This document shows positions 36,845 to 58,239 of a stretch of DNA of 64,000 nt, piece by piece. The DNA lies in contig OW121743.1 of NCBI GenBank assembly GCA_933228675.1, positions 59,328,081 through 59,392,080 of the forward strand. The letters are read 5' to 3'. The position numbers and the translations under genes were made by a program. Positions within the stretch are counted from its first letter, which is position 1. The number at the start of each line of letters is the position of its first letter. Source of the stretch: Stomorhina lunata (Eukaryota; Arthropoda; Insecta; Diptera; Rhiniidae). Below the pieces are notes generated by a model. It saw only the letters and a list, made by a program, of their open reading frames with translations, did no database searches and was not told where the DNA came from.

Positions 36845-36970
36845 ATGATTTGTCGTCTATGTTTAAAAGACATTCCGAAAGAATCTAGTATTAAATTATT
36901 TGGAAATTTAGACATATCGAGTGAATCAATAGAAATGGTTAAACTAATCGAAAAATATCTGGAAATCGAA
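36845..36970 (+). CDS. ZAD gene exon 1 (first half of ZAD)
   Basis: 42 codons from ATG (context TCAAAAATGAT), MICRLCLKDIPKESS..., ending GAA|GTAAGT in phase 0. It holds the first Cys pair of the ZAD. Confidence 0.9.
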
Positions 36971-39900
36971 GTAAGTACAAACAATGTAATTATCTTCGTT
37001 TTTTTTTTCATTAGTGTACTTAATTTTTAATTGGTTTCATATTAACGCGTCACCCGACTAGATAAAGCGTAATGATATTATATCTACCATTATATGCCAA
37101 GATTGCTATGATCATTTGGAAGACTTTCATCAATTTTCACAACAAGTGGCCGATAAACAGCTAACACTACGCAATGAATTCTTAGATGTGAATCTTAAGA
37201 AAGAGTACAATTTAGACGAAGACGGCAGCGGTGTTGATGGCTGGGATAATGATGACCAGGAAAACAAACTAGATATAGATCCAAAGGAAGCCTCACAAGA
37301 AATTACTGTTAACTGTCCCATAAGTATGTTTAAAGATGAGTCGGATTTGGATGAAAAGGATGAACAGGAAATGCCTACCGAAGATTTGATGGACTCTATT
37401 GTGACCAATAATGAAAAAGATATTATAGCGCCAGATAGCGTAGCGGTTAATGATGATGACTATGTACCGGAACCACTGACTTCAGAAGGTATGTTTTTAA
37501 TGATTAATTTTTAAATTACACCGCCAATGGTAGGTGTCCATTTTCGCATAAATTTAAAACAATTCTATTAGAATGGTTTTAACTTTTATCTGAAAAATTC
37601 AAAAGACTTCAAAAAATAAAAGAATATTTTTCAATCGAAATCAGTTACTCTACCTCCGTTTATACAAATAATAGGTATATTCGTTTACTTTCCAGTAAAA
37701 GTCCAGTAAACTGAGTATTTACTGAGTAAATGAACGAATTTACTCTCACCAAATCATTTGTACAAAAAAAGTAAACGAACAGAAAATTTGTAAAAATCCA
37801 GTAAGTAAATCGAGGCAATAAGAAAAAAAAAACAATACAATAGAGAAAAAAATAAATAAAAAATTACCTAAGCTTTTCATTTTTAATTAGTTATATACTT
37901 TTTAACTTTAATTTAGTTAATTTTATTTCTTTTACTTAAAATTTTTAACTAAATAACAATTAAGGCAAATTTTCAGTTGCCTGTTTTTCATTTTTTTTCG
38001 CCTTTTATTCATGTTGTTTTTGTTACTGAACTTTTACAAGCAAAAATTTTCCCCGTAATTTTTGAGAAAAAGTGACAGTTTACACTTTTTCTCAAAAATT
38101 CTCTCTGTTTACATTTCCCCTCTTACTGAGTTTTGGGTAAACGAACAACTTTCCGTAATATTTTGTAATAATTTGTACAAATTTTAACGTAAACGAATGA
38201 ACATATTTATTTCTTAGTTGGTATGACCAATTTCCGATAGGTGGCGCCACTGAAAATTAATCAATATTAATTTAATCGTAAACTGTGCATTTGGTCATGC
38301 TATGATCTTTAATAAAGTTGTTGCGCATGAGCCGACGATGTTTTATAAGTAGGTATGGCTAATTTCCGATAGGTGGCGCCACTGAAAATTACTCAACATG
38401 AATTAAATCGTAAACTGTGCATTTGATCATGCTATGATCTTTTGCAAAGTTGTTGCGCATAAGCCGATGGAGGTGTCTATGTTGGTACGATTAATTCCAT
38501 ATAGATGGCGATACTAAAAAATGTTAAAAATGAACTATGCATATGGGCATTTCCAGAAAAAAGTCCACCTTGATCGAAAAATTAAAAGTTAACCAACAGA
38601 TTTTTTTTTATGCATTATAAAGAAAAGAGAAGCATCTAAAATATATTAAATTTAAGATTTCAAAGATTTCCTTTGTTTGGATGGTGAAATACTGAGCTAC
38701 AAATTCGAAGTTCTCGTTTTAGTAAGTGTTTCTTAATTTCAAGGGTAGTTTCTCTCTAAAATTAACATTCCAAAGAGCAATTGCAACTTTCATTGCAAAA
38801 CTCTTGCTGCAATAACATTGAATCAGAAAACAATTGCAAAAAGTAAATTTAGTATCTATTAACGGTAAAATTTTGTTTTTCTTTAACACGTTCCCTGCCG
38901 CGTGTACCGAAACCAGTACACGCGTAGCTTCATTTTTACGCCAACGTGTTTTTTTTTTAAATTAAATTTTTTTTCTCTAAATTTTCATTCCCGTTATGAT
39001 TGTTTTATGTTATTTAGTGATGTTTAGAGGAATTTTTGCATCGTGTACTGATAACGGTACAGTTTTATATAATAACGGTAACGGTACGGTTTTATATAAT
39101 ACAAAAAGCAATAATCCAATTTCACTATTAGAATACAGAAAGAAATTAATTTTATATTTATGCAATATAGGTAATGATTCATATACTGAAGAAGATGCCC
39201 ATAAACCACGTTGTAGAAAACGTCATGAATTACAAAAAGACAGTAAAAAACCAGCAAGAAGAAACCGCTGCACATCATGCTATACAAAATGTGTGAAAGA
39301 TCATAATAGCGAAATCGCGCGAAATACTGTAAAAAGGGTGACGACATTTTGTAATGATTGTCCTAATAAGCCATTCTTATGCATTCCATGTTTTAACAAA
39401 ATTCATCGCTACATGAAAACGTAAATGAAATACTTTGGAATCATGTTCTTTTCTGTACTTCATTTTATTTAATTATTCAATCTGAAATAAATATTATTTT
39501 TTGATGTTACTATGTATGCATTATTGTTTTAATATTAATAATCTCGAAAATAATATAAATAATACCGAAAACAGTACACGGTACGTAGAAATGACACCTA
39601 GTGAAAAACAGCTTGGCAGGGAACGTGTTAAAAGATATTCCAATGTAACGTAACGCCAGAAAAATAACATTTATTTTCATTATCTCTACGCTGACGATGA
39701 GAAGTGAGTGAAATTTTGCGTTTTAAACAAGTTTTACTTTCCTACGTGTTTACAACTAAAAACTCGCTTATTAAACAAATAATTAATTTAATATAATTTT
39801 TCAAAAGTTTGTAACGATTGTGAGTAATTTCTTTGCATGTTTTTGTTGTTTTTAAATTCACATAAAATTTTGGTTTCTGCAGATGAAATCTTCGACGGAA

Positions 39901-42900
39901 AGCAAAAACTACTCAAAGCGCTATAGGGACAAATTAAAATTGGTTCCCCGTAGACTTCAAATAAGCCGTGAAAAAACTAGGGAAAGAGTATACAGATGCA
40001 GGAAAAATCTTTCGAAATCAAACCACAGAAAAAGCAAAAGAACAAAATCGTAAAAGGCAAGAAAAATTTCAAATTATAAAATCAAAAAATTTAATCCTAG
40101 AAAATTCATTGGCTTTTTATGAATAACATATTTCGAATTAATTTAATTTACATTTCCTCGGAGCAAATCGACTCATTTTCAACATTGCTATATGAAAATT
40201 GGAAGAATGAACACAGCATGTCCGCAGACACGAGTACTCCTTTTAAGCTCCTTATGGAGTACTCCCTTTAGTCTTGAAAATGACGACAGATGGAGTAATC
40301 GTTTTTGTCTCCTAAAGGAGCATAAAGGGAAACATTCATATAAAATACAAATTTGGTTATTTTTTACAAAAATAAGAAAATATTGATTTTTATTTATATT
40401 GGAAACGTGTCTTTAAGTGCTTCTGCAAGAAAATTAAAGAAAAGACAACGCGTAATATATTATTTAAAACATGCAATTAAAAATTCACCAATTACCGAAA
40501 CAAAAAAAGTAAACAAATTTGTATTTGTTTATTTTTTGATCCATTCCAATTTAATTTGAGCAAAATATTTTTTGTTATGTCAAAGAAAAAAAAAACTAAC
40601 TGATGCATCCCTTGTTGATCCATTTGGAGTATTAAGCGAGGCATAAACAACAAAACAAAATAAAAAGTTTCGATAGCTCGCTTATTACTCCAAATGGATG
40701 AACAAGTCATTACTCCTTTGTTGCTCAAATATGGATTAATCCATATATTTTTTACTGGGATCCCAGTAAAAAATAGGATCATCCAAAGAGTACTCTTGTA
40801 GCGCTCCTTTGCGAGTAATGGATTACTCCATAAAACTCCGAAACTCATAGAATTTTTAACACAGCATGTCCGCAGATACGAGTACTCCTTTTAAGCTCCT
40901 TATGGAGTACTCCCTTTAGTTATTTGGGAATTAATTATTCGAACTTTAGAATTAATTGAAAAATTAGGTTTCATCAGGCTTGAGTTCATTTAATTTTCAA
41001 ATTATTAATTTTGAAAATTAGAAAGTAAATTATGGAGAAAAACTGAAAAAATTATTTTTTGAACGCGGCTAGTGGATTGCAATTTCTGTCCCGCCACAGG
41101 ACGTCATCAGCACTTAGCGCCCTCGACCACAGTCGAGTTGTCAAATTGCAGAGATAATCATCAATTTAACTCATTGAGTTTGATCGAACATCCCTACGTT
41201 TAATTGATTGTGTATTCTCCACTAGCCGCGTTCATAAAATAATTTTTTCAGTTTTTCTCCATAATTTACTTTCTAATTTTCAAAATTAATAATTTGAAAA
41301 TTAAATGAACTCAAGCCTGATGAAACCTAATTTTTCAAGTACTCCCTTTAGTCTTGAAAATGACGACAGAGGGAGTAATCGTTTTTGTCTCCTAAAGGAG
41401 CATTCATATAAAATACAAATTTGGTAATTTTTTACAAAAATAAGAAAATATTGATTTTTATTTATATTGGAAACGTGTTTTTAAGTGCTTCTGCAATACA
41501 TATTATTTAAAACAGCAATTGAAAAGTCACAAATTACCGAAACAAAAAAAAGTAAACAAATTTGTATCTGTTTATTTTTTTATCCGTTCCAATTTAATTT
41601 GAGCAAAATATTTTTTGTTATGTCAAAGAAAAAAAAAACTAACTGATGCATCCCTTGTTGATCCATTTGGAGTAGTAAGCGAGGCATAAACAACAAAACA
41701 AAATAAAAAGTTTCGATAGCTCGCTTATTACTCCAAATGGATGAACAAGTCATTACTCCTTTGTTGCTCGGTTATGGATTAATTCATATATTTTTTACTG
41801 GGATATTCATAAATAATAAATATGTATGTATGTACCATATATACATACACAAATAATAAATGTTTTTATATAATTTTCTAATTTCTGTGCCTTTTTCCTT
41901 TCCTAAATAACGTAACGCCAGTTACGTAACGCCAGTAACGTAACGCCAGACCAATTTTCCTAAAAGAAAAAAAAGGAAAAAAGATTTGTTGAATTTATAA
42001 CTTGGAAAAGAAATGTATATTGGTCCAAAACCTACAAAAAAAAATTTTATTAAAAATACTTGCCCAATTCGCAGAGTTCAACAATTTTGTTATCAAAGTC
42101 AAATCGCACGTCCGTTTTTTATAACGTAACGCCAGGTCACTTTTTTCTTAGGCTCAACTATTTCCATTTTTAGGCTAAATATAGAGCTATCCAATCACTT
42201 CTCTGATGTAAGAAAAAAACTTTTTTAAATTCTGGTTTTTAAAGTTTTTTTTTTAATATATTGCTGTACAAAAGTAACGTAACGCCAAAATGGAAATGCC
42301 CATATAAAATATATCACGATCTTAAGTAAAGTTTCTGGCATGAGCAGCAATGCGCGCTGGGTATAGCTAGTAGGTCTATTCGTTTACTTTCCAGCAGTGA
42401 TGCCATCCAAAAATTTTACTTTGTGGGAGATTCGACATTAAAAAGCAGTAGATTAAAAAGTAGTAGAAAAAGTGGTAGATCTACCACTTTTATTATTCAA
42501 GCTTTTGAAGAATTTTAAAGTTAGAATATTTACGCTTTTATTCAATGTTTTGTTTAAAAACAAGTAAGAGAGCACTATAGTCGGCCAAGCCCGACCATAC
42601 GATACCCTTCACCACTAAGGTCAAAGGTGTTATTTTTCCTGTATAAAGACAAATATTTGCTAAATTTTGCTATCATACAAACATTTTCTCAAAACTTATA
42701 TATTCAACCTGTTTCCGTCATTTGGACTTATATGAACATTGGCTTTAATAATTGTGGAAAAAATATTGACTTCTACTTAATTATTTTGGATAACATTTGG
42801 TTTTTTGGCTCTCCTTAAAAATATTCTGGTTGGTTCATAGTCGGTATTGAATATAGGCTCAAGATTTACAACCTGTTAAGATTAAAGGCCGAAAATAATT

Positions 42901-45900
42901 TAAAAATTCCATAAGCTTCGATTTTGCTCTTATATTCTCTCATTTTTTAGGCCAAGCTTTAAAAGAGTTTGCTCAACTTCCGACCAGCGAAGATTAAAAT
43001 TTCCTTTGGAATTTTCGAACACTTTTCTTGTTGAATTATTTTCATCCTGGGCATGTAGCCGCTGCTGTTTAATTTATTTTTCTATGAATCAAAGATTCCG
43101 ACTTCACCGATTACAAAAAAGTTCTAACATGTAATTATTTAATAACTAGCAATATTTCTTACTTACAGATGACGATGATGACTTACCTTTAATAAAACTC
43201 AAGTCCACTAAATCCACCAAAAAATCAACTCCAAAAAGGAAACGCAAAAAGACACCAGCTAAGCCTCGTGAGGTTAAGGAAAGGAAGCCTAAAGCCAAAA
43301 AGAAATCTATACAGGAAGAAGTGGCCATGGCCATAGATCTAATATGTGACATTTGTCAAACGCGTGTTGATACCTGGAAGGCCTTACGAGAACATTTCTT
43401 ACTAGCACACACTAAAACACCATATATAAAGTGTTGCGATATTGTCTATAGAAAACCAAGAGATCTTAGTGAACATCTTGAGTGGCATAAAAATCCCGAT
43501 ATGTTTAAGTATGTACCAAATTTATTATTTTATTTATTTTTTTGTATTAACTCTTTTGTTTTCTTTCCTAATTTCACACAGATGTCAAGTTTGCAATGAA
43601 AATATGTCTAGCGTCCGCAATTTAACAATACACATTACATCTGAACATCCCGATGAAGCAGAGGACTTAGTAGAGTTCTATGAGTGTGAACACTGTTCCA
43701 AACGTATACGCAATTATAACTTATTTAAAAAGCATTTACGCTCTCACAATCAGGAAAAAGAAGTTGAATGCCACATTTGCAACAAAAGGTAAGCGAGTTT
43801 TGTTGATTTTAATATGAAATTGTAAAAGTTACCAAGTAACTATACAATTAATGTGCTAGAAAATAAGATAGGGTGCCAAATATTATTCAATAGATGCTCC
43901 AGAGACATGTAAAATGTCTAGGAAGACGATGCAAATTTTATATTAAATTAAAAAGTGGACCAACACTTGCTTATACGTCCATTGTATTAGGTTAAGTCTT
44001 ATGTACTCTTTTTTTCGTTATTTGAATTTTTTTATTCTTCGTGAAGAAATCATAAATGAAAATTTCATTGGGAATTTTTAAATGATTTTCAAGTATTTTT
44101 AAATTGTCTTTTTCCTATTATTTTAAATATTGTCTTAAATATAAGAAAAAGTGCTAAAGAGTACATCGGTTTCGTGAATTTGGTCAAAACTAAACTATTT
44201 CTTAAGGAACGTTATTTTTCAAATCATTATTAATTACACTGTGCTGGTTGAAAAAAAAAAAACAAAACGACAAACGGGACACCTAGTGGGTAAAGATAAA
44301 TCCAGTAAGCTAAATCCAATAGTGCTAGGTCAGCTCTAGTTTTCGAGATGTAGCGGGAATAGAATCCAATCGTTAGCACCATTAAATTCAGCGTACTCGA
44401 TTTGTCTTTACCCACTAGGTGTCCCGTTTGTCGTTTTTGTTTTTTGTCGAAAAAAGTCTCAAAATCGAGCACAGTGTTATCATTATTTATCATTTGAGTG
44501 TCAGACGCTTAATTTTGGGCTTTTGTAAAATTTGTTTTAAACTAATTTTAGGCAAAACTTCCCGTCCACTGTTTTTTTTAATAGTTTTTAACCGATCTTG
44601 CAACATGTGACGAAGCGTTGTCATAATAGAAGATTGTGGCCTTGTGTCTGATCATTTTTCGTTGATTGCTCGCTTCAAACGAATCAATTATTTCTGGTAC
44701 AGGTCCTTAGTCTGATCAAATTGATGATAAAAAACATTGATGTCATAAACATTGAGTATCTATCAATTTTTTTATCGCCAGTAACTATTAGATGCAAAAA
44801 TGACTTCTTTTTGTAGCGTCTCTTGGCTTCAATTCATTTTTGACCCAATTTCTTGCTTTTTCATGAATCCCAATGCTTATTGTAAGACTCCCATTAATAA
44901 TGGAGTTTTTTTTCCGTTTGACAATAATCTTTATTGAATAATGCTTTAAAATCCTCATCACCGGCTAACCAGGCCGGTATTTTATCGAAATTACCGCCCA
45001 AAACATCGTTCACAAACTTTTTGAGTTGGTGCATGTTTAACGTAATCTTTTACCAATGATCGATAACTTTCGGCAGCCGTTTTCTTTAAATGAAAGAATG
45101 TTTAAAGACTCCCCCGCAAAACGTATTTTTTAGGTACAAAGTCCCACATTATAATTGAAAACAATGTGTGTTTACACTTTGGCGTCTATCGAATACTGAA
45201 CTAAAATGGCCCTTTAAAATACCATATTCGTTATTAAAGACACAAACCATATGTGATAGTTATGCTATATTTTGTTAATTTTAGTGGGATGCAAACCTTC
45301 GAACATGTAATACTCATAATATTTTAATCCCAAGAAAAAAATCAGCGATTTTATTCCTCGTATCATCCCGCAACCAAAACTACTTTAAAGGAAAAGAAAT
45401 AAGCTTTTTTCGAGCGCAAAAAAAGGTCGTATAAAAAAAATATTTTTCTGTGAAAATTGTCGATAAAAATATTTTTCTGTTGAAAAATTTTCGATTAGAT
45501 AAATTTTTGATAAACAAATTTTCTATATAAAAATTTTTGATAGAAAAATTTGTGATAAAAAAAATTTTCTATAGAAAAATTTTTGATAACAAAATTTTCT
45601 ATAGAAACATTTTTGATAACAAATTTTCTGTAGAAAAATTTTTGATAAAAAATTTTCTATAGAAAAATTATTGATAAAAAATTTTCTATAAAACAATTAT
45701 TGATAAAAAATTTTCTATAGAAAAATTATTGATAAAAAATTTTCTAAAAAACAATTATTGATAAAAAATTTTCTATAGAAAAATTATTGATAAAAAATTT
45801 TCTATTGAAAAACTTTTGATAAAAAAATTTTCTATAGAAAAATTATCGATAAAAAATTTTTCTATAGAAAAATTTTGGATAAAAAAATTTTTTATAGAAA

Positions 45901-48900
45901 AATTTTTGTATAAAAAAAATTTTCTATAGAGAAATTTTTGATAAAAAAAATGTTCTATAGAAAAATTTTTGATAAAAAAATTTTCTATAGAAAAATTTTT
46001 AATAAAAAATTTTCTATAGAAAAATTATTGATAAAAAATTTTCTATTGAAAAATTATCGATAAAAAAATTTTCTATAGAAACATTTTCGATAAAAAATTT
46101 TTTATAGAAAAATTTTCGATAAAAAATTTTCTATAACAAAATTTTTTATAAAAAAATTTTGATAAAAAAAATGTTCTATAGAAAAATTTTTGATAAAAAA
46201 ATTTTCTACAGAAAATTTTTTGATAAAAACATTTTCTATAGAAAAATTTTTGATAAAATAATTTTCTATAGAAAAATTTTTGATAAAAAAATTTTCTATA
46301 GAAAAATTTTTGATAAAAACATTTTCTATAGAAAAATTATTGATAAAAAATTTTCTATAGAAAAATTATTGATAAAAAATTTTTTATTGAAAAATTTTTG
46401 AAAAAAAAATTTTCTATTGAAAAATTATCGATAAAAAATTTTTCTATAGAAACATTTTCGATAAAAAATTTTTTATAGAAAAATTTTCGATAAAAACATT
46501 TTCTATAGAAAAATTTTTGATACAAATTTTTTCTATAGAAAATTTTTTCATAAATTTTTTTTCTATAAATAAATTTTTAATAAAAATTTTTTCTATAGAA
46601 AAATTTTTGATAAAAAAATTTTCTATAAAAAAATTTTTGATTAAAAAATTTTCTATACAAAAGTTTTTAATAAAAAAATTTTCTATAGAAAAATTTTTAT
46701 TAAAAAAATTTTCTATAGAAAAATTTTTAATAAGAAAATTTTCTATAGAAACATTTTTGATAAAAAAAATCTTCTATAGAAACATTTTTGATAAAAAAAA
46801 TCTTCTATAGAAACATTTTTGATAAAAAAATTTTCTATAGAAAAATTTTTGATAAAAAAATATATATTTTGATAAAAAAATTTTCTATAGAAAAAAAAAG
46901 TTATAACCTTAATGTACATCTGTATACTTTAAAATATTCTCTTATTTGATATTCTTCTCCACTAGTTTCTCTGACTCAGAGTAAAACTTTTTATTTTTTT
47001 AATGGTATTTTTGAAAAATCCCATTCAAAATTTATTACCGACATTTTAATATATAGAAGTGCAACATCTTTATATTATAGAGTCTGATTTTACTTTATTG
47101 ATAAAGTGTATCAAATAGAAGGTCTTGATCGACTATAGCTTGTTTTTATTAAAGACAATTTTCTTGTAGACCAGTGTAATTTGTTTATTGAAAATAAAAT
47201 TTTGAAACATTTGAACATGAATTTAGTAATATTAAAAAAAGTGGTATTAACAAGGCTTTTACAAGCTAAGTAAAATAGCTAAAGATTTATTAGCAAAGTC
47301 AATTATTAAAGACTTAAACCAAATCGCATTGCATTCAAATAAACATAAAACCCTAATACAGTAAACCCCCCTATAACACGGTTTACTGGGACCGTGTTAT
47401 AGGGGGGCCGTTTTACTACCCCGTATAACACGGTTTCTACAAATAATTGATAATATAAGAGCATAATTAGCAAAATAGTACAATATAAGAATATAAAATG
47501 CAGTGGCTCCCAACTATGTGCAAATGTCCCATACATTATGTATGTACTATTTGGGCAAAAACCGTGTTATAGGGGGTAAAGATCGTGTTATAGGGGGGAC
47601 ATGAAACCGTGTTATACGGGGGCCGTGTTATAAGGGGCCGTGTTATAGGGGAGTTTACTGTACATGCAATAACATACAATAACTCTTAAAACAGTGTAAT
47701 ATTTCATATTTGATTTTTCTATTGTTTCTTTTGCTCATTTATTCATGCAATAGTAGTTGCGTTGTAAATATCGCTAATAAAATGTTAGTGCTAAATAAAT
47801 AACTACTTTATGTTTTAAATTAAATTTCATACCTATAGATTTTGCTCGGAAGGTAATTTAACTCGTCACAACGAAAACTTACACAAGTACGTTAAACGAG
47901 ATACTATTTGCGATATTTGTGGCCAAACATTTAAAGACAAAGATCGCTTTAAACGTCATTACGCAGAACATCAAGGCATCATCGAGCCACCTGTCCAATG
48001 TACTATATGCCACAAATGGCTTAAAAATAAAAACAGTCTAAGTTTACATCGGTTTTATTTACACGAGAAAGCTCAGATGTCATGTAACATATGTGGAAAG
48101 ATGTTCGACAACCGAAATAGTCTGCGTGTACATAAGTCCTATTGGCACAAGACAAATTTAAATTTAAAGTGTAATTTTTGCGATAAGGTATTTCGACAAG
48201 AGCGTAATCTTCAAGAGCATATGGCTATACATACGGGTGTACAGCTCTATAATTGTCCACATTGTCAGAAGGAATCACGTTCCAAATCAAATATGTACGT
48301 TCATATAAAAAGACAACATCCAGAAGAATGGTGGAAATCTAAAATGGAACGTTTAAATTTAGATGGAATTACTAAAACCAATACATTTAATCAATAGCAA
48401 TAAGAAACTGTTTAGAACTATTTTCTTAAATGTTTAACATTATATATGACACGCAAATACAATTTATAAAAGAAAGTACTATTCAAATTTAAGTCATTTA
48501 TTAAGATGTGAAGGGTTTAGAGAATGATTCTTGTAAACGATACTGATGTTTGCTTTCCAGCGGGTTCTCTTATATCAACACGGCTTTTAGTCTAGCTTGA
48601 AATAAATACTATAACTTTTAGTTTGATTAGTCTCTTATAGACACTGCAAAGTTACTATGAATCTATTTAAAAAATAATATCAAATTTTCTCAAAACTATG
48701 TTTTTTGACATTGGCCCTTTTAGCACCAAGCCACAGATTTAAGGTGCTACCTATAATAAAACAAAATTATATTTTTAAAGCATTGTCAATCAAATAATTT
48801 CAGATGAAATTATTAAGCCTATTGAAACAAAAACGGACACCGGACTAATTACACTGGTCAAGAGCCAAAATTACGTTTTTGTTAAACTATTTTTTATGAG

Positions 48901-51900
48901 TTTGGAACACTAAATACAAAAACCCAGATTTGGGATTTTTAATGAGTTGTCTATTTTACCATTTAGCCAAATCCGAAAAACCTTAAACCAAGGACAAAAT
49001 GTTACAACTGCAAAAATCACATAGAATATAAAAAGAATACAATTTTTGATTAGTCTCTTCGTGAATGCAGGACCAAAGACTATATTTTATAAAGACATAG
49101 CACTCCATACATTTGTTTTCTGTCAAAAGTGAAATTAAAGTGGATAAAGAACAATTAAAAACTCATAGGTTAGGTTAAAAAGGAGGTGTCAAGCGACACC
49201 TTCATTTGGAGGCCCCTAGGGGTCCATTGTGATTCTTTACTAAAAAAGGAGAAAAAAGAAGATTGAAGATAGAGGAAGAGAAACGATAAAAGAATAGTGC
49301 AGATGGAGAAGGAGAGTACCCTATCTAGGCCAGTTGAGACCAGTGGTAAACCCTACAATATCTTGCAAACTGCACTGTTGCAGGTCCTGAAGTTCAGAAA
49401 ATAATCTGCTGCCTAGATGTTTGAGCCTTGGATTTTGCAGCCTTGGACAGTGACGGAGAATGTGTTCTACATACTCGGACGAATCCTCATCTAGATATAG
49501 TCGGCAGATATCCGGGATGGTACTATCCCACCTATTTAACCTCGAATTTAAGGCACAGTGTCCCGTTAGGAACCCTATACATTAGAGCGTTTCGCCGTAC
49601 ATACACGAAAAAAAAATTGTGTCAGTCACCCCCTAAATTAAATGTTAAATTAATGTTAAAACAATTCTAATTTTTTTTTTATTTTTTACCACGCCTGCAA
49701 ATACCGCCCTTTTAGTATTTTGTTCACTGTGTCGCCATTTTAAGTCCGATAATAATATTTTATATATCGGTGTTCGCGGCTCTGTAGGGACTACATTTCT
49801 CTCTTTGATATTTTTTCTACCACTTCAATTTATAGTCATAACTTCTAAAAACTAGATTTGTACTCGATTCGATTAGGGTGGGTACGAATCGAATTTTCAA
49901 AATTTATGACTAGAAGTTGACGTTGTAGTAAAAAACTATCAAAGGGAGAAATGTAGGCCTTACAGATACGTGAATACCGATTTATAAAGTTATATGATAG
50001 GTCTACAATAGGCGTGGTAAAAAAACAAAAAAAAAAATATTTTTAGATTTATTTTGACATTATCTTTAATCCTAGGGGGTGACTAGCTCAACATTTTTTT
50101 TCGAACCACTCTACTATACATCTTTTTAAGCTTGCCTATTCAGATCTAGTAGAATTTTGGTTCCATTAATGTCCGGCTTAGTCCATAGAGCTCTGGACGT
50201 CCTACAAGTAACCATGTTTCCCCATGTCCTTGTGATTTCCTTGCTTATCCAAGACTAAATGCCTAAATAAAAGTGACAGATAGGTGGAGCCATATCTGTC
50301 ACTTTCGACTTAAGTCTTGGTTCAAGCCTAGTCTAGCGACGTCCAGCGATGTCGCAATGACCCGGAAACCAACACGATCTAATCCTATAACTGAAAGATA
50401 GGTCTAAAAGAGCTATCCTACATTTTTTAACTAGTTTAGAGGTAATACTATGTTCGATGTATATTGTCACCTCACTATTTCAGATATAAGATCCTTGATG
50501 AGCTCTGTAGCCTTCCAAATGGCAAAAATCTCTGCCTGGAAGACACTGCATTCATCCGCTAGTCTGAAGGATTTTCTAACATTTTGATCCATCAGGAAAA
50601 CACCAGATTCAGTACCGCAATCCATTTTAGAACGATTCGTGAAGATCGAAAAGCCTTGAAAAAGTGCTGTTTGACCCTTCCAGTCGGATCTATCAGGGAT
50701 TACGATTTCTGGCGCTGTGCTAAACAGTAGCTCTTTGACTAAACAGTCAGATCTTGGTAAACCTGACACATAAGCGCACAAACAAACATACACTTAATGA
50801 GCACGTGTATGTGCCTTAGCTTTCTCTCATTGGATAAACATCTGCATTAGTTGTTTCCGAATTCGAGTAAAAGCGGTATGCTGTCTTTTTAAAGGTATAC
50901 GGCTAATCAAGGTATGGAAGTGCAACATATTTATCATATAGAGGGTTCCATTTTTTGTAGTGTCCGTCACAGCACTTTAAGTGCGAATATTTTTTTTCCC
51001 CAAAACAAGTTTGTAAACAAACAAATGCCACTCGAAAGTGCAATCGATAGGCTATAATTCTCTGAAATCTGAGCAAACATATAACAAATCTGTACAAATG
51101 TAACGTCAGCCACGCAGGATTTGCACATATATTGAAAACGACTTATTCACGTTTATTATAAAAAACATTAAAGGATTAAGGACAAATTTGCTCTTAAGAT
51201 GTGCTATGACAAGTTTTTTAATCTAATCAACGGTTTTGGAGTTATTTACATTGCAATTAAAAAAAAAAATTAAAAATTCATAAAAAATATACCTTTGAAA
51301 CAAAATTGTGTGTTTTTAACTCCAACCCAAAAATAGTCGATCGCACACTAAGAGACTCCCTTAACGACCAAAAATAAAGCAGATCGTTACTTTCTTCATC
51401 CACTGAGAACAGCCAACTATTACTGGTATTTGCTTTTCTTATATTGTCAGTTTAAGAGAGATGTTACTATACCACACTACCCGCAGTTATTCTATTTGTA
51501 GATGACATCGAAATTTCTTTGTAGTACATGCAGTAAAAGCTTAGTTAGTTCTTAAATATTTAGGTATAAATTGATTATTTTCGTAATCGACTAACAAATT
51601 GCCTTTAGTTTAGTTTAGTTAGATTTCTGTTAAGTTGGAGTTTGTTGGAATTTCTTCGTTGAACTTTTCGTTTGCATTTTAAAAGAGATTTTTTTTTTTT
51701 AATTTTGTTAATTGATATTTTGTTAAATTAAAAAAAAAAAAAAACTTGTAACTACAAACATTTTGTTTTGTTTTGAATTAAATTCCATATAGATTACGTT
51801 CAGCACACAATTTAAATCATCATATCGAAAACATACACAATAATAATATTAAATGTAATATTTGTGATGTTTGTGGACAAAAGTTTAAAAACAAAGATTC

Positions 51901-54900
51901 ATTCAAACGTCACATTGCCCAGCATCAAGGCATCATTGAACCGCCCGCCCAATGTTCCATATGCCATAAATGGCTTAAAAATCAAAACAGTCTTAGAATA
52001 CATCGATTTACACATGAGAAAAAACCAATTGCCTGTGATACTTGTGGAAAGATATTTGATACCAAACGTAAACTGCGTAAACACGAAGACTACTGGCATA
52101 AGACAGATCTAAATTTGCATTGTAACTTTTGCGATAAAGTTTTTCGAGATCAGCGCAATCTAAAAGAGCACATGGCAATACATACTGGCGAGCAGCTGTA
52201 TAACTGTCCACATTGCCCCAAAGAATCACGTTCCAAATCGAATATGTATGTCCATATAAAGAGACAACATCCAACGGAATGGTGGAAATCAAAGATGGAA
52301 CGTTTAAATTTAGATCCAAATGCTATAAATCCTCAATTAGATAAATAGTCTTAAGTAATTTTTATTAAAACATACATATTAGTTTTCGTTGGTAATAAAT
52401 GTACATATGCTGTGTCATATAGTTAATTTTGAATTAAAGAAACAAAAAAAACAATTAGATCTGGGGGGTCAGATTGAAATCGAAATTGCGCTGAAAATGT
52501 TTATTGTATAGTTTAAGTTACGAAATCCTAGTAATGCTTATTTACTTTTCTAGTCAATTCTAGAATTAAGAAGTAACAACAATTACTAGCCAAAAAAAAA
52601 CGTACTCCTCCATATAAAATTATTATATTGTAAATAACACGGGTCAACAGCCATAATTTGGGATTTTTGAAAAGGTTGTCCTAGTTATATAACCATATGT
52701 GACCCGGTCTATGATTAGGTGGCTTATGACTCAAAAACAAAATTTTGAAAAATTTGCTAATTTTTCCAAATTTTTAGCTAATTTTCGAAATCTGAGTAAT
52801 GTGAGTTTTTGAGTCATACGCAACCTTTTCCCTTTTTATAGACCGGGTCACATACATATATTGAAAACGACTTATCGAATATTATTGAAAATCACAATAA
52901 TGGATTAAGAACAAAATTGCCCTAAAGTTTATGCGATTAATGACTTTAGATTTATTTACATCGCAAAATAATTGTTTTTCAAAATCAAAAATTTTTATTT
53001 TTGAAAAATTATTTTAAAAAATTAAATGGCCGAAACTTTCTTGTTGATCGTAAAACTTAAATCTTCTAAAGAACATAGTACAAGCCATATAGCAAAGATT
53101 CTATAATATAAAGATATTGCACTCCATACATTTGTTTTCTGTCAAAAGTCAAATTAAAGTGGATAAAATACAATGAAAAACACATTAACGCACAAACAAA
53201 CATAGACTTAATGAACACCTGTGTGTGCCTTAGCTTTCTCTCATTGGATAATCGTCTGCATTAGTTGTTTCCGAATTAGGGTAAAAGCGGTATACTGTCT
53301 TTTTTGTGGGACTTTTCGAAAAGACCAAACGGCATATCAATTTATGGAAGTGCAACATCTTTATATTATAGAGTCTTTGCTTAAAGTAAGTTCTTAAATC
53401 AAAATCGATTTATTAGCTTTACTCAGTTTAATAAATTTCAACTCATAAAATAAAAACCTGTTTAAAATGGAACGAGGAAAGCTATTAACATTAGAAGAAA
53501 GAGAAAAAATTCAAGCCTATTTTGAACAAAAGTTGTTCTTTAGAAAAATTGGTGAGAAAATCGGAAGAAGTGCTCGCATTGACTTTAATAACATTAAAAC
53601 CCGGGATTCCTATGGGAAAAATGTGAAAGGAAGACCGGCTGACACAGCATTTCAAAACAATGTTATGAAATGCTGTGATTCCGTACCAAAAATTAAGGCT
53701 TAAACCGGAGTTTCTGCTAGTATTACGACTGTTCGGCAATTGGTTGTGAATGTTCGGTATATCCAGAGAATAAAAACTTAAAACAAATCTGTAAAAAAAA
53801 CACAAGAAAAAAATTTTCAAAAATTTACTTTTTATAGGAAATTTTTCAAAAATTTACTTTTTATAGAAAATTTTTCAAAAATTTACTTTTTATAGGAAAT
53901 TTTTCAAAAATTTACTTTTTATAGAAAATTTTTCAAAAATTTACTTTTTATAGGAAATTTTTCAAAAATTTACTTTTTATAGGAAATTTTTCAAAAATTT
54001 ACTTTTTATAGGAAATTTTTCAAAAATTTACTTTTTNNNNNNNNNNNNNNNNNNNNNNNNNNNNNNNNNNNNNNNNNNNNNNNNNNNNNNNNNNNNNNNN
54101 NNNNNNNNNNNNNNNNNNNNNNNNNNNNNNNNNNNNNNNNNNNNNNNNNNNNNNNNNNNNNNNNNNNNNNNNNNNNNNNNNNNNNNNNNNNNNNNNNNNN
54201 NNNNNNNNNNNNNNNNNNNNNNNNNNNNNNNNNNNNAAAAATTTACTTTTTATAGGAAATTTTTCAAAAATTTACTTTTTATAGGAAATTTTTCAAAAAT
54301 TTACTTTTTATAGGAAATTTTTCAAAAATTTACTTTTTATAGGAAATTTTTCAAAAATTTACTTTTTATAGGAAATTTTTCAAAAATTTACTTTTTATAG
54401 GAAATTTTTCAAAAATTTACTTTTTATAGGAAATTTTTCAAAAATTTACTTTTTATAGGAAATTTTTCAAAAATTTACTTTTTATAGGAAATTTTTCAAA
54501 AATTTACTTTTTATAGGAAATTTTTCAAAAATTTACTTTTTATAGGAAATTTTTCAAAAATTTACTTTTTATAGGAAATTTTTCAAAAATTTACTTTTTA
54601 TAGGAAATTTTTCAAAAATTTACTTTTTATAGGAAATTTTTCAAAAATTTACTTTTTATAGGAAATTTTTCAAAAATTTACTTTTTATAGGAAATTTTTC
54701 AAAAATTTACTTTTTATAGGAAATTTTTCAAAAATTTACTTTTTATAGGAAATTTTTCAAAAATTTACTTTTTATAGGAAATTTTTCAAAAATTTACTTT
54801 TTATAGGAAATTTTTCAAAAATTTACTTTTTATAGGAAATTTTTCAAAAATTTACTTTTTATAGGAAATTTTTCAAAAATTTACTTTTTATAGGAAATTT

Positions 54901-57900
54901 TTCAAAAATTTACTTTTTATAGGAAATTTTTCAAAAATTTACTTTTTATAGGAAATTTTTCAAAAATTTACTTTTTATAGGAAATTTTTCAAAAATTTAC
55001 TTTTTATAGGAAATTTTTCAAAAATTTACTTTTTATAGGAAATTTTTCAAAAATTTACTTTTTATAGGAAATTTTTCAAAAATTTACTTTTTATAGGAAA
55101 TTTTTTCAAAAATTTACTTTTTATAGGAAATTTTTCAAAAATTTACTTTTTATAGGAAATTTTTCAAAAATTTACTTTTTATAGGAAATTTTTCAAAAAT
55201 TTACTTTTTATAGGAAATTTTTCAAAAATTTACTTTTTATAGGAAATTTTTCAAAAATTTACTTTTTATAGGAAATTTTTCAAAAATTTACTTTTTATAG
55301 GAAATTTTTCAAAAATTTACTTTTTATAGGAAATTTTTCAAAAATTTACTTTTTATAGGAAATTTTTCAAAAATTTACTTTTTATAGGAAATTTTTCAAA
55401 AATTTACTTTTTATAGGAAATTTTTCAAAAATTTACTTTTTATAGGAAATTTTTCAAAAATTTACTTTTTGTAGGAAATTTTTCAAAAATTTACTTTTTA
55501 TAGGAAATTTTTCAAAAATTTACTTTTTATAGGAAATTTTTCAAAAATTTACTTTTTATAGGAAATTTTTCAAAAATTAACTTTTTATAGGAAGTTTTTC
55601 AAAAATTTACTTTTTATAGGAAATTTTTCAAAAATTTACTTTTTATAGGAAATTTTTCAAAAATTTACTTTTTATAGGAAATTTTTCAAAAATTTACTTT
55701 TTATAGGAAATTTTTCAAAAATTTACTTTTTATAGGAAATTTTTCCAAAATTTACTTTTTATAGGAAATTTTTCAAAAATTTACTTTTTATAGGAAATTT
55801 TTCAAAAATTTACTTTTTATAGAAATTTTTAAAAAATTTACTTTTTCGAGGAAATTTTTCAAAAATTTACTTTTTCGAGGAAATTTTTCAAAAATTTACT
55901 TTTTCGAGGAAATTTTTTAAAAATTTACTTTTTATAGGAATTTCGCTATGAAATATATCTCAATTTAAAAAAAATGGACTTAGGGGCTGCTCACATATTA
56001 CGTAATGCTATTTTTGAGAAACGTACTTACTCTATATATATATATATAATATAATTCCCCGACAACATTCCAATTGGAACAAGGGGTACTTCTCTCAGAC
56101 AATGAGCTGCATCCGATTCTATTTTTGACTCATTGAAAGGGACCTACGTTTTAACGCCGGCTCCGAACGGCAAATGCATTAGTTAGAGAAGTTTTTCATA
56201 GCCTAATACTCAATAACCAGTGGCTAGCTGAGTTATGAGGTGAACCGCCGCTTTTTGAAAATTAATTTTTTTCAAGTGGGTCTGACAGGGATTGAACTTG
56301 GGACCTCTGGTATGCTAGGCGGATGACTAACCTGCTATACCACGGCGGTTCTACTTACTCTATAGCCAATTATTTTATTTTAAATAACACTGGTCAACAA
56401 CCATTTTAGGTAAATTATGTTTATACTCACCATCAAAAAGAATGAGTTACATTAAGTTTGTCATTCCGTTTTTAATTCCCATCAAAATCAGAAGACCATA
56501 ATGAATAATATAAAATATAGTGGTGGTCAAAGGTAACGCACAAAGTTGAATTTTGAGAATTAGTGTTAGTAATAGTTTATCTAATGGCTCGATTGGGTAT
56601 TACAAGTCAACTTCAAATGTGTTCCTAAAATGACATTACGTATGGGAGCTAATAACCGATAAAAGAAACTCAGTTGCCTTGAAAATTATTATTCATATTG
56701 TAGATGTCAACAAGAGTCAATTCTAGCTGCCAGTTATAGGTTATTTTAGCAAAAACGGATTTATATTTATATTTTTTTCACTTTTTTTCATTAAAATGGC
56801 TATTTTTTCTACACTTTTTCTTGTTCTTCTTAGTTGCCAGTCACAATTTTCGATAACTATTCGCAACTGACATGTGTTGCCATATACAATACAACTTTTT
56901 TTTGTTGGTTGTGTTGCCAGTTGAAGAAGCAACTAAAATTCGGTTGCAATACACAATCGAGCCATTAGTAGAGATGGGTTTAGACCTGGGTATTTACCTA
57001 ACGATGGGTATTTACACCCACGTTCATACCCGGGTATTTATCTAATTTCGAGTAAATACTCATTTGAATAACAAATACTACTCGTTGTTACGTAGAGCAA
57101 AAGAATTTTGAACATTTTCGAATTTATCTGAGGTACCTCCTGCATTGGAATTCATTTGCACAATGTCACAGGCGCTAAACATAAATGTAATGGCATATTT
57201 TGTCAATTACAAGGCCAGAAATGATTTTCGGGCCAAAACTTTTGTTTGGATGAAATTTCTCCAGTAAATTAGTGGAAAGAAATTTGTGGAAGTACGCAAT
57301 TAAGCAAATTAGATGTTCGAATTTTAACAGCTCCCTGTACTTCAGGACGTTCAGAAGTCCCCTTAGCACCCACAGCTTCTTCTTTTAAATTTTTTTTATT
57401 TTGATTTATACCCACATTTTGGGTAAATACCCAAGTGCTTGGGTAAATAACTGGGTATTTACCTTTTAATACCAAATTTACAATTTGAGTATTTACCCTT
57501 GTCCCATCACTAGCCATTAGTAATTGTCCTTCATAAGCTTTAAAATTATTTTTCCGATTTTCAGGAGATTTCAGAATTTGATGGATTTGATTTGTGCTTT
57601 GAATCTTTTGATAACTTTAGGAACAATAACTCTTCTTCTTACAAAAAAATTAGTAACTACATCATTTTTATTTTGAATTAAATTCCATTTAGATTCCGCT
57701 CGGATCATTATTTAAACCGTCATACCGAAACCATCCACAATAATAGACAAATTTATATTTGTGACGTTTGTGGTCAAAAGTTTAAACACAACGACTCATT
57801 CAAACGTCACGTAGCTCAACACCAAGGCAAGATTGAGCCACCCGTCCAATGTTCAATATGCCAACGATGGCTAAAAAATCAACACAGTCTAAGATCACAT

Positions 57901-58239
57901 CGTTTAAGGCATGTACAATTTGCAATAGCTTGTGCGACATGTGGAAAAGAGTTCGACGCCAAGCATAAACTGAGAAGACACATAAAATACTGGCATAAGT
58001 CAGATCTAAACTTGCATTGTAGCTTTTGTGATAAAGTTTTTCGAGATCAGCGCAATCTAAAAGAACATATGGCCATACATACGGGTGAACTGCTCTACAA
58101 CTGTCCATTTTGTCATAAAGAATCGCGTTCTCAATCGAATATGTACGCCCATATAAAGAGACAACATCCCAACGAATGGTGGAAATCCAAAATGGAACGT
58201 TTAAATTTGGATCCGAATACAAAGAAAGAAATTAATTAA
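36845..58239 (+). CDS. ZAD C2H2 zinc-finger factor with three alternative last exons
   Basis: Common exons 36845-36970, 37062-37488, 43169-43508 and 43582-43788 can be joined to any one of three last exons: 47839-48397 (552 aa), 51793-52348 (551 aa) or 57693-58239 (548 aa). All acceptors are AG, all phases match, and no stop interrupts. The ZAD, an insect dimerisation and zinc-binding domain, has CRLC (3-6) and CQDC (54-57). Then come an acidic linker, a Lys/Pro basic linker, and fingers arranged as in grauzone-like ZAD factors, including the atypical CC finger (YIKCCDIVYRK). Each isoform would have about ten fingers. A sequence-specific nuclear DNA-binding factor is the expected role; targets are unknown. 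Known: insect ZAD genes often duplicate in tandem. Inferred: here only the last exon was duplicated, giving mutually exclusive ends. Alternatively, only one exon is used and two are relics, but all are intact. Confidence 0.85.
37062..37488 (+). CDS. ZAD gene exon 2 (second half of ZAD, acidic linker)
   Basis: Acceptor CACCCGACTAG. IKRNDIISTIICQDCYDHLE completes the ZAD. The rest is Asp/Glu-rich (DEDGSGVDGWDNDDQEN). Ends TCA GAA G|GTATGT in phase 1. Confidence 0.88.
37665..38210. mobile_element. Probable TIR element in ZAD intron 2
   Basis: ATATTCGTTTACTTTCC at the left and an imperfect complement (GTAAACGAATGAACATAT) at the right, with AGTAAA/TTTACT-rich interior and an internal inverted AAAGTGACAGTTTACACTTT. 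A further ATTCGTTTACTTTCCAG stands at 42373. Non-coding. Confidence 0.5.
38215..38540. repeat. 131-bp repeat units in ZAD intron 2
   Basis: Two and a half units with GGTGGCGCCACTGAAAATTA, AATCGTAAACTGTGCAT and GTTGTTGCGCATGAGCCGA. The GTTGTTGCGCAT landmarks are 131 bp apart (38318 and 38449). Confidence 0.85.
38883..39631 (+). mobile_element. piggyBac-type element, internally deleted
   Basis: TTAA at both outer edges (38883-38886, 39628-39631), the exact target duplication of piggyBac, next to 13-bp inverted ends CACGTTCCCTGCC. Subterminal ACCGAAACCAGTACACG is repeated directly near the right end as ACCGAAAACAGTACACG. Only the 3' part of the transposase is kept. Confidence 0.92.
38996..39424 (+). 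pseudogene. piggyBac transposase C-terminal remnant
   Basis: Encodes the Cys-rich C-terminal domain typical of piggyBac transposases: RNRCTSCYTKC, TFCNDCPNKPFLCIPCF and NKIHRYM. The catalytic Asp domain is absent, so it cannot act. The open start is arbitrary (no proper N-terminus). The surviving Cys pattern looks undamaged, consistent with a fairly young deletion derivative. Confidence 0.88.
40212..41815. repeat. Tandem duplication (about 640 bp), second copy interrupted
   Basis: Both copies begin ACACAGCATGTCCGCAGA (40212, 40859) and share AAGCTCCTTATGGAGTACTC, GACGACAGANGGAGTAATCG and TTACTCCAAATGGATGAACA. Copy 1 ends at 40858; copy 2 continues after an insertion (about 40920-41336) to about 41815. 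Both are rich in GGAGTA/TACTCC inverted motifs. Confidence 0.85.
40920..41336. mobile_element. Foldback insertion with arms of about 115 bp
   Basis: Arms at about 40960-41072 and 41213-41336 are long inverted complements (GAAAAATTAGGTTTCATCAG on the left; GATGAAACCTAATTTTTC on the right) around a GC-richer centre of about 140 bp. The insertion is flanked by a direct repeat AGTACTCCCTTTAG (14 bp) on each side, longer than most DNA transposons leave. Confidence 0.8.
42555..42720. mobile_element. ACCCTTCACC-family repeat fragment
   Basis: ACAAGTAAGAGAGCACTATA, GTCGGCCAAGCCCGACCATA and TACCCTTCACCACTAAGG match the left 150 bp of 7569-8345. Confidence 0.8.
42840..43010. repeat. Dispersed repeat shared with 62715-62880
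   Basis: TTACAACCTGTTAAGATTAA, AATTCCATAAGCTTCGATTT and TAGGCCAAGCTTTAAAA occur here and, with changes, near 62723-62820. Family unknown; perhaps a retrotransposon scrap. Confidence 0.6.
43169..43508 (+). CDS. ZAD gene exon 3 (basic linker, fingers 1-2)
   Basis: Acceptor TTTCTTACTTACAG. The Gly/Asp junction codon gives DDDDDLPLIKLK. A Lys/Pro-rich, nuclear-localisation-like stretch (TPKRKRKKTPAKPREVKERK) follows. Then finger CDICQTRVDTWKALREHFLL-AH and the atypical CC finger ending HLEWH, and NPDMFK. Ends TTT AA|GTATGT in phase 2. Confidence 0.9.
43582..43788 (+). CDS. ZAD gene exon 4 (fingers 3-4 and the Cys half of finger 5)
   Basis: Acceptor TAATTTCACACAG. Fingers CQVCNENMSSVRNLTI-H-ITSE-H and CEHCSKRIRNYNLFKK-H-LRS-H, then CHICNK and a split Arg codon at AAA AG|GTAAGC. 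Without splicing, the frame stops at once (KR then TAA), giving a possible truncated isoform. Confidence 0.9.
44263..44438. mobile_element. MITE with TIRs of about 38 bp inside a mariner relic
   Basis: CAAAACGACAAACGGGACAC, CTAGTGGGTAAAGA and the complement at the right end. About 100 bases of non-coding sequence lie between. Poly-A/poly-T edges flank it. Confidence 0.82.
44470..45150 (-). pseudogene. Mariner transposase relic
   Basis: On the minus strand the N-terminal blocks FHLKKTAAESYRSLVKDY, HAPTQKVCERCFGR, and, in another frame, GNFDKIPAWLAGDEDFKAL and NKDYCQTEKKL match the DNA-binding half of mariner transposases. Further on, RLKRAINEK and SIMTTLRHMLQDRLK, then GREVLPK, look like the eroded catalytic half. 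There are many stops and frameshifts. A different family from the DD37E copies. Confidence 0.75.
45425..46895. repeat. 30-bp minisatellite in the ZAD gene, upstream of last exon A
   Basis: Units of about 29-30 bp, TTTTCTATAGAAAAATTTTT plus GATAAAAAAA, moderately diverged with slips in poly-A length. The TTTTCTATAGAAAA core is palindromic. It ends about 940 bp before last exon A. Long open frames through it are artefacts of the repeat. Confidence 0.93.
47050..47092. mobile_element. TATAGAGTC-family MITE, right-end scrap
   Basis: GAAGTGCAACATCTTTATAT followed by TATAGAGTCTGAT, the right terminus of the family at 53095-53379. Confidence 0.7.
47359..47660. mobile_element. pogo-like MITE with TA duplication
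   Basis: 302 bp, flanked by TA on both sides. It starts CAGTAAACCCCCCTATAACA and ends with the near-complement GGGGAGTTTACTG. CCGTGTTATAGGGGG is repeated five or more times inside in both orientations. CAGT ends with a TA target fit the pogo/Tigger branch. It stops about 180 bp before last exon A. Confidence 0.85.
47839..48397 (+). CDS. ZAD gene alternative last exon A
   Basis: Acceptor TTTCATACCTATAG. The first A completes the split Arg, then FCSEGNLTRHNENLH completes finger 5. Five further fingers: CDICGQTFKDKDRFKRH, CTICHKWLKNKNSLSLH, CNICGKMFDNRNSLRVH, CNFCDKVFRQERNLQEH and CPHCQKESRSKSNMYVH. Tail EEWWKSKMERLNLDG...FNQ and TAG. It is the most diverged of the three. No canonical AATAAA was seen within about 150 bases. 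Confidence 0.9.
49167..50761 (-). pseudogene. LINE ORF2 3' part (RNase H and C-terminal region)
   Basis: Read on the minus strand. RNase H-like sequence (FTNRSKMDCGTESGVF, SFRLADECSVFQAEIFAIWKA) lies near 50660-50480; the first catalytic Asp of a TDGS-type motif is replaced by TNRS. WFPGHCDIAG follows near 50350. Then come KILLDLNRQ and, after an insertion, LTGHCALNSRLNRWD, then CRLYLDEDSSEYVEHILRHC and PRLQNPRLKHLGSRLFSELQ (49570-49330). This order fits an I/Jockey-like LINE with an RNase H domain, 5'-truncated, with its 3' end near 49167. Stops and the MITE insertion make it dead. Confidence 0.88.
49605..50108. mobile_element. Foldback MITE inserted in the LINE
   Basis: Nearly the whole 504 bp is an inverted repeat. 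The left arm (CGAAAAAAAAATTGTGTCAG, TCACCCCCTAAA, ACCACGCCT, TTTCTCTCTTTGATA) pairs with the right arm (TATCAAAGGGAGAAATG, AGGCGTGGT, AGGGGGTGACTAGCTC). It separates the conserved LINE blocks NRQA.KDV and LTGHC. Confidence 0.85.
51793..52348 (+). CDS. ZAD gene alternative last exon B
   Basis: Acceptor AATTCCATATAG. Split Arg, then LRSAHNLNHHIENIH completes finger 5. Then CDVCGQKFKNKDSFKRH, CSICHKWLKNQNSLRIH, CDTCGKIFDTKRKLRKH, CNFCDKVFRDQRNLKEH and CPHCPKESRSKSNMYVH. Tail TEWWKSKMERLNLDPNAI and TAG. A second frame and the minus strand are also open, but only this frame has the finger pattern. Confidence 0.9.
52394..52399 (+). promoter_or_regulatory. Poly(A) signal of last exon B
   Basis: AATAAA 46 bases after the stop, followed by TGTACATATGCTGTGTCAT, a GT-rich stretch. 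It supports exon B as a true terminal exon. Confidence 0.6.
52696..52854. mobile_element. 159-bp MITE with GTGACCCGGTCTAT ends
   Basis: TATGTGACCCGGTCTAT and its complement at the far end, extended inward by imperfect TATGACTCAAAAAC arms. The centre GCTAATTTTTCCAAATTTTT resembles the repeat in PRORP intron 1 (33957-34090). Confidence 0.85.
53095..53379. mobile_element. Full-length TATAGAGTC-family MITE
   Basis: Ends AAAGATTCTATAATATAAAG and CTTTATATTATAGAGTCTTT form inverted repeats of about 35 bp with few mismatches. 285 bp, non-coding. Used as the reference for the copies at 5.3, 7.0, 47.05, 49.1/50.8 and 58.4 kb. Confidence 0.88.
53467..53785 (+). pseudogene. Tc1/Tc3-like transposase N-terminal fragment
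   Basis: MERGKLLTLEEREKIQAYFE and KIGEKIGRSARIDFNNI resemble the paired helix-turn-helix start of Tc3-type transposases. SYGKNVKGRPADTAFQN follows, then a stop, then SASITTVRQLVVN. There is no catalytic domain. The 78-residue open frame ends just before the minisatellite. Confidence 0.72.
53795..55945. repeat. 29-bp minisatellite between last exons B and C
   Basis: Over 60 nearly identical 29-bp units, GGAAATTTTTCAAAAATTTA plus CTTTTTATA, with rare single changes (GTAGG, AATTAACTT) and a decayed right edge (TTTTTCGAGG). It is related to the 31-bp array at 0.7-3.5 kb, read from the other strand. On the plus strand each unit contains a pyrimidine tract ending ATAG. The true length is unknown because of the gap. 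Confidence 0.95.
54037..54236. other. Assembly gap (200 N)
   Basis: Exactly 200 N within the 29-bp array, with the same repeat on both sides. 200 is likely a placeholder, so the array size cannot be read from this sequence. Confidence 0.98.
56272..56352 (-). repeat. tRNA-like SINE head
   Basis: The minus strand gives GCCGTGGTATAGCAGGTTAG, CCGCCTAGCATACC, and AAGTTCAATCCCTG (B box). The terminal stem does not pair, so it is more likely a tRNA-derived repeat than a gene. It differs from the GTAGCTCAGTGG family at 5.6, 31.5 and 62.4 kb. Confidence 0.6.
56969..57512. mobile_element. hAT-type MITE with 8-bp target duplication
   Basis: 544 bp. Ends TAGAGATGGG and CCCATCACTA are short imperfect inverted repeats typical of hAT elements. 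GCCATTAG stands directly on both sides (56961-56968, 57513-57520): an exact 8-bp duplication. The interior is full of GGGTATTTACC/GGTAAATACCC motifs in both orientations near each end. No transposase. It ends 180 bp before last exon C. Confidence 0.93.
57693..58239 (+). CDS. ZAD gene alternative last exon C
   Basis: Acceptor AATTCCATTTAG. Split Arg, then FRSDHYLNRHTETIH completes finger 5. Then CDVCGQKFKHNDSFKRH, CSICQRWLKNQHSLRSH, CATCGKEFDAKHKLRRH, CSFCDKVFRDQRNLKEH and CPFCHKESRSQSNMYAH. Tail NEWWKSKMERLNLDPNTKKE and TAA. It is closest to exon B; the fifth full-finger helix DQRNLKE is identical to that in B. Confidence 0.9.

Follow-up and report, generated by a model that had tools for sequence, protein, structure and literature searches.

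Two Drosophila BTB genes, mod(mdg4) and lola, each combine a constant dimerising N-terminus with one of many terminal exons encoding DNA-binding or zinc-finger domains. Isoforms of Broad, which also carries a BTB domain, have different C-terminal zinc fingers behind a shared N-terminus. ZAD genes make up a very large insect family of zinc-finger genes, usually said to diversify by whole-gene duplication. In the available text of PMC4667647, the variable exons of mod(mdg4) are described as mostly of the FLYWCH type, with some located on the opposite strand; trans-splicing is reported for mod(mdg4) and lola (PMC4667647, PMC11426971, available parts). The BTB gene fruitless yields isoforms with a common N-terminus and differing C-terminal zinc fingers (PMC3852243, available part). 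As far as the accessible parts of two papers describe it, cucoid of culicine mosquitoes is a ZAD C2H2 gene (PMC9810180) whose transcript isoforms have alternative last exons (PMC6783274); depending on the end used, the one array is shortened by finger 5, or by fingers 5 and 4 together with half of finger 3 (PMC9810180).

The locus analysed here, in the fly Stomorhina lunata, appears to be a single ZAD C2H2 gene in which one N-terminus is followed by alternative terminal exons, by whatever route these are joined. We put the probability of this reading, which is drawn from sequence, at about 0.88. The window, that is, the whole 64,000-nucleotide stretch of DNA analysed, is C10:59328081-59392080 of a 728-Mb assembly. 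Four common exons (Table 1) join in frame to give 366 complete codons plus two bases. The product has both features of a ZAD-ZNF transcription factor, an N-terminal ZAD and a C-terminal C2H2 array, and runs from the ZAD through an acidic linker and a basic stretch to the fingers. PF07776 matched the ZAD with E = 3e-11 and 43.9 bits (cut-off 28), at residues 2-79 once the exons are spliced, and the nearest solved structure is that of the grauzone ZAD (PDB 1pzw, E = 2.6e-8). Pfam identified zf-AD and zinc fingers, and no BTB domain in the common part. As the first-pass annotation had stated, exon 4 breaks off both within a codon and within a finger: its 3′ end encodes CHICNK followed by two bases of an Arg codon (...TGC AAC AAA AG/GTAAGC, the slash marking the exon end).

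Three terminal exons, A, B and C, had been described in that annotation, each with its own acceptor, entering in the same phase, restoring the same Arg codon, completing the split finger, adding five more and ending at its own stop; all three were said to be fully open and to share their architecture and tail. These features were recovered in full and at the stated coordinates, the tail being EWWKSKMERLNLD in all three, and the exons are real. The number three did not hold, since the array is larger and continues with exons D-H in the next 17 kb of the chromosome. The additional exons lie 4.8-17.2 kb past the end of the window, which truncates the array; they were found by searching 170 kb starting 1 kb before the window end (233 kb together with the window), with the terminal exons of the S. 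lunata gene and those of relatives as queries. The array A-H spans about 33 kb, the distance from the start codon to the end of H is 44 kb (36845 to 81221), and D and E are separated by just 428 bp.

All eight terminal exons share strand and phase, have an AG at the exact base and restore the same split Arg codon, AG/A. Every one is open to its own stop and contains six out of six canonical C2H2 fingers by motif; in a Pfam scan of A-C, PF00096 scored above cut-off in each. The predicted isoforms, from A to H, are 552, 551, 548, 550, 549, 552, 545 and 578 residues long, and the tails of the eight exons are close to that of A-C. Upstream of each of the eight acceptors a stop occurs at 4-7 codons with no ATG between, so no terminal exon can start its own protein upstream. 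AATAAA or ATTAAA was present within 400 bases after each stop, as plain hexamer matches that are a weak sign in AT-rich DNA.

Table 1. Exons and acceptor modules of the locus. Window numbering is continued past 64000 for exons D-H; a slash marks the exon end.
Feature	Position (window numbering)	Position (C10)	Strand	Description
Common exon 1	36845..36970		+	Start codon and first ZAD half; ORF, donor GAA/GTAAGT
Common exon 2	37062..37488		+	Remaining ZAD and acidic linker; in-frame join, donor AAG/GTATGT
Common exon 3	43169..43508		+	Basic stretch and first C2H2 finger; in-frame join, donor TAA/GTATGT
Common exon 4	43582..43788		+	Two more fingers and first half of split finger; donor AAG/GTAAGC
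Acceptor module of A	47818..47838		+	AATTAAATTTCATACCTATAG
Terminal exon A	47839..48397		+	559 nt; 6 fingers including split one; own stop
Acceptor module of B	51776..51792		+	AATTAAATTCCATATAG
Terminal exon B	51793..52348		+	556 nt; 6 fingers including split one; own stop
Acceptor module of C	57676..57692		+	AATTAAATTCCATTTAG
Terminal exon C	57693..58239		+	547 nt; 6 fingers including split one; own stop
Terminal exon D	68814-69366	59396894-59397446	+	Beyond window
Terminal exon E	69795-70344	59397875-59398424	+	Beyond window
Terminal exon F	73045-73603	59401125-59401683	+	Beyond window
Terminal exon G	75280-75817	59403360-59403897	+	Beyond window
Terminal exon H	80585-81221	59408665-59409301	+	Beyond window

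Minisatellite arrays with units of 31, 21, 29, 15 and 29 bases were observed at 749-3383, 14397-15716, 23889-24858, 45463-46895 and 53810-55940, respectively, and TATAGRAAA occurs within the units of those starting at 14397, 23889 and 53810. The last of these arrays, between B and C, contains a 200-N assembly gap (54037-54236), because of which the real B-C distance is uncertain. Intron 2 holds a Cys-rich reading frame (38981-39424) that has no Pfam match and presumably resembles the tail of a piggyBac-type transposase. Overlapping frames on the minus strand at 25005-26043 look like what we take to be a broken Tc1/mariner-type transposase.

A short sequence module precedes the acceptors. The pattern AATTAAATTYCATN{0,6}TAGATT, which was derived from the A-C acceptors themselves, matched these three acceptors as its sole occurrences in the window and was not found in any of 100 shuffles. 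Across the eight exons, TTTTAAATTAAATTTCATATAG matched at 22 of 22 positions in A, D and F (the 4-base insertion of A being omitted), with agreement at 20 in B, 19 in C, 15 in both E and G, and 12 in H; in E, G and H the module is poorly conserved. B and C are identical at 17 of the 18 bases directly upstream of the exon, compared to 16 of 36 at four-fold degenerate sites. Aligning A at the best of 17 shifts gave only 12/18 with B and 11/18 with C, and the corresponding four-fold sites agree at 14/31 and 16/31. The B and C acceptors agree better than expected under neutral divergence, with local gene conversion as a possible alternative. The only 9-mer common to the 400 bases upstream of A, B and C was AATTAAATT; the intron 43789-47838 does not contain its complement, and no docking/selector pairing was found when A-C were compared. 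Terminal exons need no docking/selector device of the Dscam type.

When the isoforms were used as tblastn queries, the terminal exons matched one another with E values of 2e-69 to 4e-86. These values, the acceptor pattern and a genome-wide search with exon B exclude a chance resemblance of the terminal exons. The exon B search returned exactly eight places with at least 63% identity among the best 150 of 732 candidates, all at this locus and on one strand; within the same 150, the ninth by score had 39% identity, and pieces of about 50 residues elsewhere reached up to 55%. At the nucleotide level, the exons are homologous to one another over a stretch that begins a few dozen bases upstream of the acceptor and ends near the stop (only the inner part in pairs with H), and outside it there are just scattered repeat and flank matches. 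These limits identify the terminal exon plus its acceptor as the unit of duplication. Over the 233 kb, blastn (up to E = 1) gave short matches, many of which lay in AT-rich flanks; the strongest covered 84 bases of flank right after F. The 20 best other tblastn rows in the 233 kb (down to E = 0.03) revealed no further terminal exon, intact or decayed, and all fell within one distant zinc-finger gene at 223.8-224.4 kb. Elsewhere, related zinc-finger arrays, many of them split in two and some accompanied by ZAD fragments, were noted in dense clusters on G000:C11 at ~30.40, 52.42-52.45 and 55.38-55.54 Mb; these are possibly other ZAD gene clusters, for which alternative ends of their own are conceivable.

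In a one-way database search, the nine best relatives, from Calliphora, Lucilia, Cochliomyia, Musca domestica and Stomoxys, were all named grauzone or grauzone-like; proteins of Musca autumnalis and Haematobia without stated function came next, and a D. busckii match is named CG2889. The 13 best matches align over 98-100% of the query. Among the C. vicina records, X2 and X5 were compared: no residue differs between them in the 356 that lead up to the junction Arg or in the 11 that follow, after which they differ within the terminal exon; their terminal parts are 84% identical. Because of these 11 shared residues, the exact splice point cannot be read from the protein records. A pair of L. cuprina records shows 362/364 identities before the junction and 109/187 after it, differing from the first post-junction residue. 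The 'isoform' labels of the relatives are database annotation. Very high isoform numbers were also observed for ZAD zinc-finger proteins of Tribolium (P0220, isoform X27) and Cryptotermes (P0222, isoform X12), which are possible further loci with many alternative ends.

Phylogenetic trees were built separately for the N-terminal and terminal parts. In the N-terminal tree, Lcup_X1 and Lcup_gb are sisters (100/96) and Mdom groups with Maut_X1 (99/98). In the terminal-exon tree, Lcup_X1 groups with exon H (win_H) and Maut_X1 (100/99), and exons A-G group with C. vicina X2 and X5, L. sericata X4 and Cochliomyia isoform 2 (100/98). AU tests, with groups chosen once the trees were known and with a warning from the tree tool about long branches, including A and C, rejected the N-terminal pairing on the terminal data (p = 1.3e-48) and the converse (p = 4e-5). 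Terminal exons group across fly families and N-termini by species; this conflict suggests a small family of terminal exons behind one N-terminus. The H class and at least one other class look as though they predate the split of these muscid and calliphorid flies.

Pairwise NG86 dN/dS was 0.08-0.22 in 22 of the 28 exon pairs, with dS of at least 0.77; dS was not computable in the other six. A crude neutral simulation started from B and F (2000 runs each, 0.3 substitutions per site) left 0.05% (B) and 0.1% (F) of runs free of stops. The open frames and low dN/dS lead us to reject pseudo-exons. Residues at the DNA-contact positions are nearly fixed in the last two fingers ([DQE]RNE and SSN[VA]); in fingers 1-4 the contact positions -1, 2, 3 and 6 vary among exons, those of finger 4 reading NNSV, TRKK, AHKR, THRR, AHRT, THRR, AHRK and TKNR from A to H. 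Faster change at contact positions was not significant for A-C pairwise (p = 0.25-0.61) or with every finger of all eight exons counted (p = 0.083); for fingers 1-4 only, a restriction made after the fact, the excess gave p = 0.012. In these counts the 'other' positions exclude the hydrophobic core (except in the split finger, A-C test) and the split-finger residues contributed by exon 4. To judge from the residues themselves, the arrays likely have different DNA targets.

The first-pass annotation had proposed that one ZAD-bearing N-terminus could be delivered to three arrays. Delivery to several arrays is supported by the phase and split codon shared by all eight exons together with their low dN/dS, by the single common part in the genome (among the best 111 of 555 candidates), and by the records of C. 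vicina and L. cuprina along with the tree conflict. Alternatively, each of exons B-H could close a complete gene of its own, with a 5′ part that escaped detection. Other flies do seem to have whole-gene duplicates of the family: P0004 and P0007 of Cochliomyia are listed on contigs of equal length, as are P0008 and P0014 of Musca. P0007 appears to be a gene separate from P0004 and its whole-gene duplicate, so that this family also multiplies by whole genes. At the S. lunata locus, however, the genome-wide search with the common part identified this place only, in four pieces with 86-99% identity, the next best place having 31% (best 111 of 555 candidates), and tblastn detected no second copy in the 233 kb. 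The stop shortly ahead of each acceptor argues against separate genes as well. There are 93 ZAD matches genome-wide, and the other ZAD genes are distant; those in the 233 kb, at ~103.8 kb (39 residues, 44%) and ~225.1-225.3 kb, are on the opposite strand, and neither sits among the terminal exons. Separate genes are thereby largely refuted and seem to us extremely improbable.

It is also conceivable that one exon, A or another, is used and that the others are unused duplicates of the last exon, and the exons were clearly made by tandem duplication. Yet all eight have remained open with six intact fingers each, with the low dN/dS found in every computable pair; the 20 best other tblastn rows held no further copies, the protein records of relatives show different terminal parts behind the same N-terminus, and the H class has been kept across families. 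We consider the use of a single exon quite improbable. Trans-splicing as at mod(mdg4) and lola, with the terminal exons transcribed from their own promoters as separate pre-mRNAs and then attached to the common 5′ part of another transcript, would be a variant of the preferred reading. It is the mode of the best-known insect loci of similar shape, in the available parts of PMC4667647 and PMC11426971, and the length of the S. lunata locus from start codon to the end of H is in its favour. Against it, all eight exons are in line with the donor on one strand, where ordinary cis-splicing suffices, and the short distance between D and E leaves little room for a promoter; it appears unlikely. Choice among alternative last exons is the simplest mechanism for a gene with eight terminal exons behind one N-terminus.

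Under the single-gene reading, the locus would be a calyptrate gene for a ZAD C2H2 transcription factor with four common 5′ exons followed by eight alternative terminal exons. In each mRNA, donor 43788 would be joined in cis to a single acceptor out of eight, and the exon selected would supply the acceptor, the six-finger array, the stop and probably its own poly(A) site. With stop and poly(A) site within the chosen exon, the choices would be mutually exclusive without further machinery, and every terminal exon is predicted to be used. Each protein would then have the same ZAD and first fingers and a different main DNA-binding array, and mixed dimers might form through the shared ZAD. The exons arose by repeated duplication of the last exon, carrying just a few dozen intronic bases; the H class would be older than the split between house flies and blow flies, and A-G group with blow-fly exons.

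This arrangement would offer ZAD genes another route of diversification, in which only the DNA-binding exon is duplicated behind one dimerisation domain. A small set of regulators with the same partner-binding part, each reading different DNA, could probably be produced from one gene. The eight closely related arrays form a natural series within a single gene, including an older class that would predate the blow-fly/house-fly split, and the locus allows the birth, retention and regulation of alternative DNA-binding arrays to be tested outside BTB genes. It also bears on how generally such loci come to use trans-splicing.

The first-pass annotation had called such a structure unusual for a ZAD gene. 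Within the open-licence literature searched, in the parts available, this stands, as no ZAD gene with several complete alternative finger arrays was recognised there; it is qualified by cucoid, a precedent of sorts (PMC6783274, PMC9810180, accessible parts). The arrangement thus seems unrecognised in print within that literature and partly present in database annotation. Fly proteins named CG2889 or 'transcription factor grauzone' have the same layout as the S. lunata product; an unsystematic look at the Drosophila, tephritid and Glossina matches, where 90% clustering could hide isoforms, turned up no same-species pair with the same N-terminus and different ends.

Unlike the truncating ends of cucoid, each S. 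lunata terminal exon supplies a complete six-finger array. fruitless and Broad, likened here by description rather than by sequence, differ by their BTB domain. In anatomy alone, the S. lunata locus has the layout of mod(mdg4) and lola, constant exons followed by several DNA-binding terminal exons; those genes carry a BTB domain and the S. lunata locus a ZAD, and it is therefore not a member of that group. We lean slightly towards regarding it as the ZAD counterpart of lola and mod(mdg4) in calyptrates, with a set of eight or more arrays that grows and turns over, birth and death at the level of exons, diversifying contacts in fingers 1-4, constancy of the last two fingers and the tail, and possible mixed dimers. 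In contrast to mod(mdg4) and lola, its variable exons lie in line on one strand, are close relatives of one another and share a common six-finger layout.
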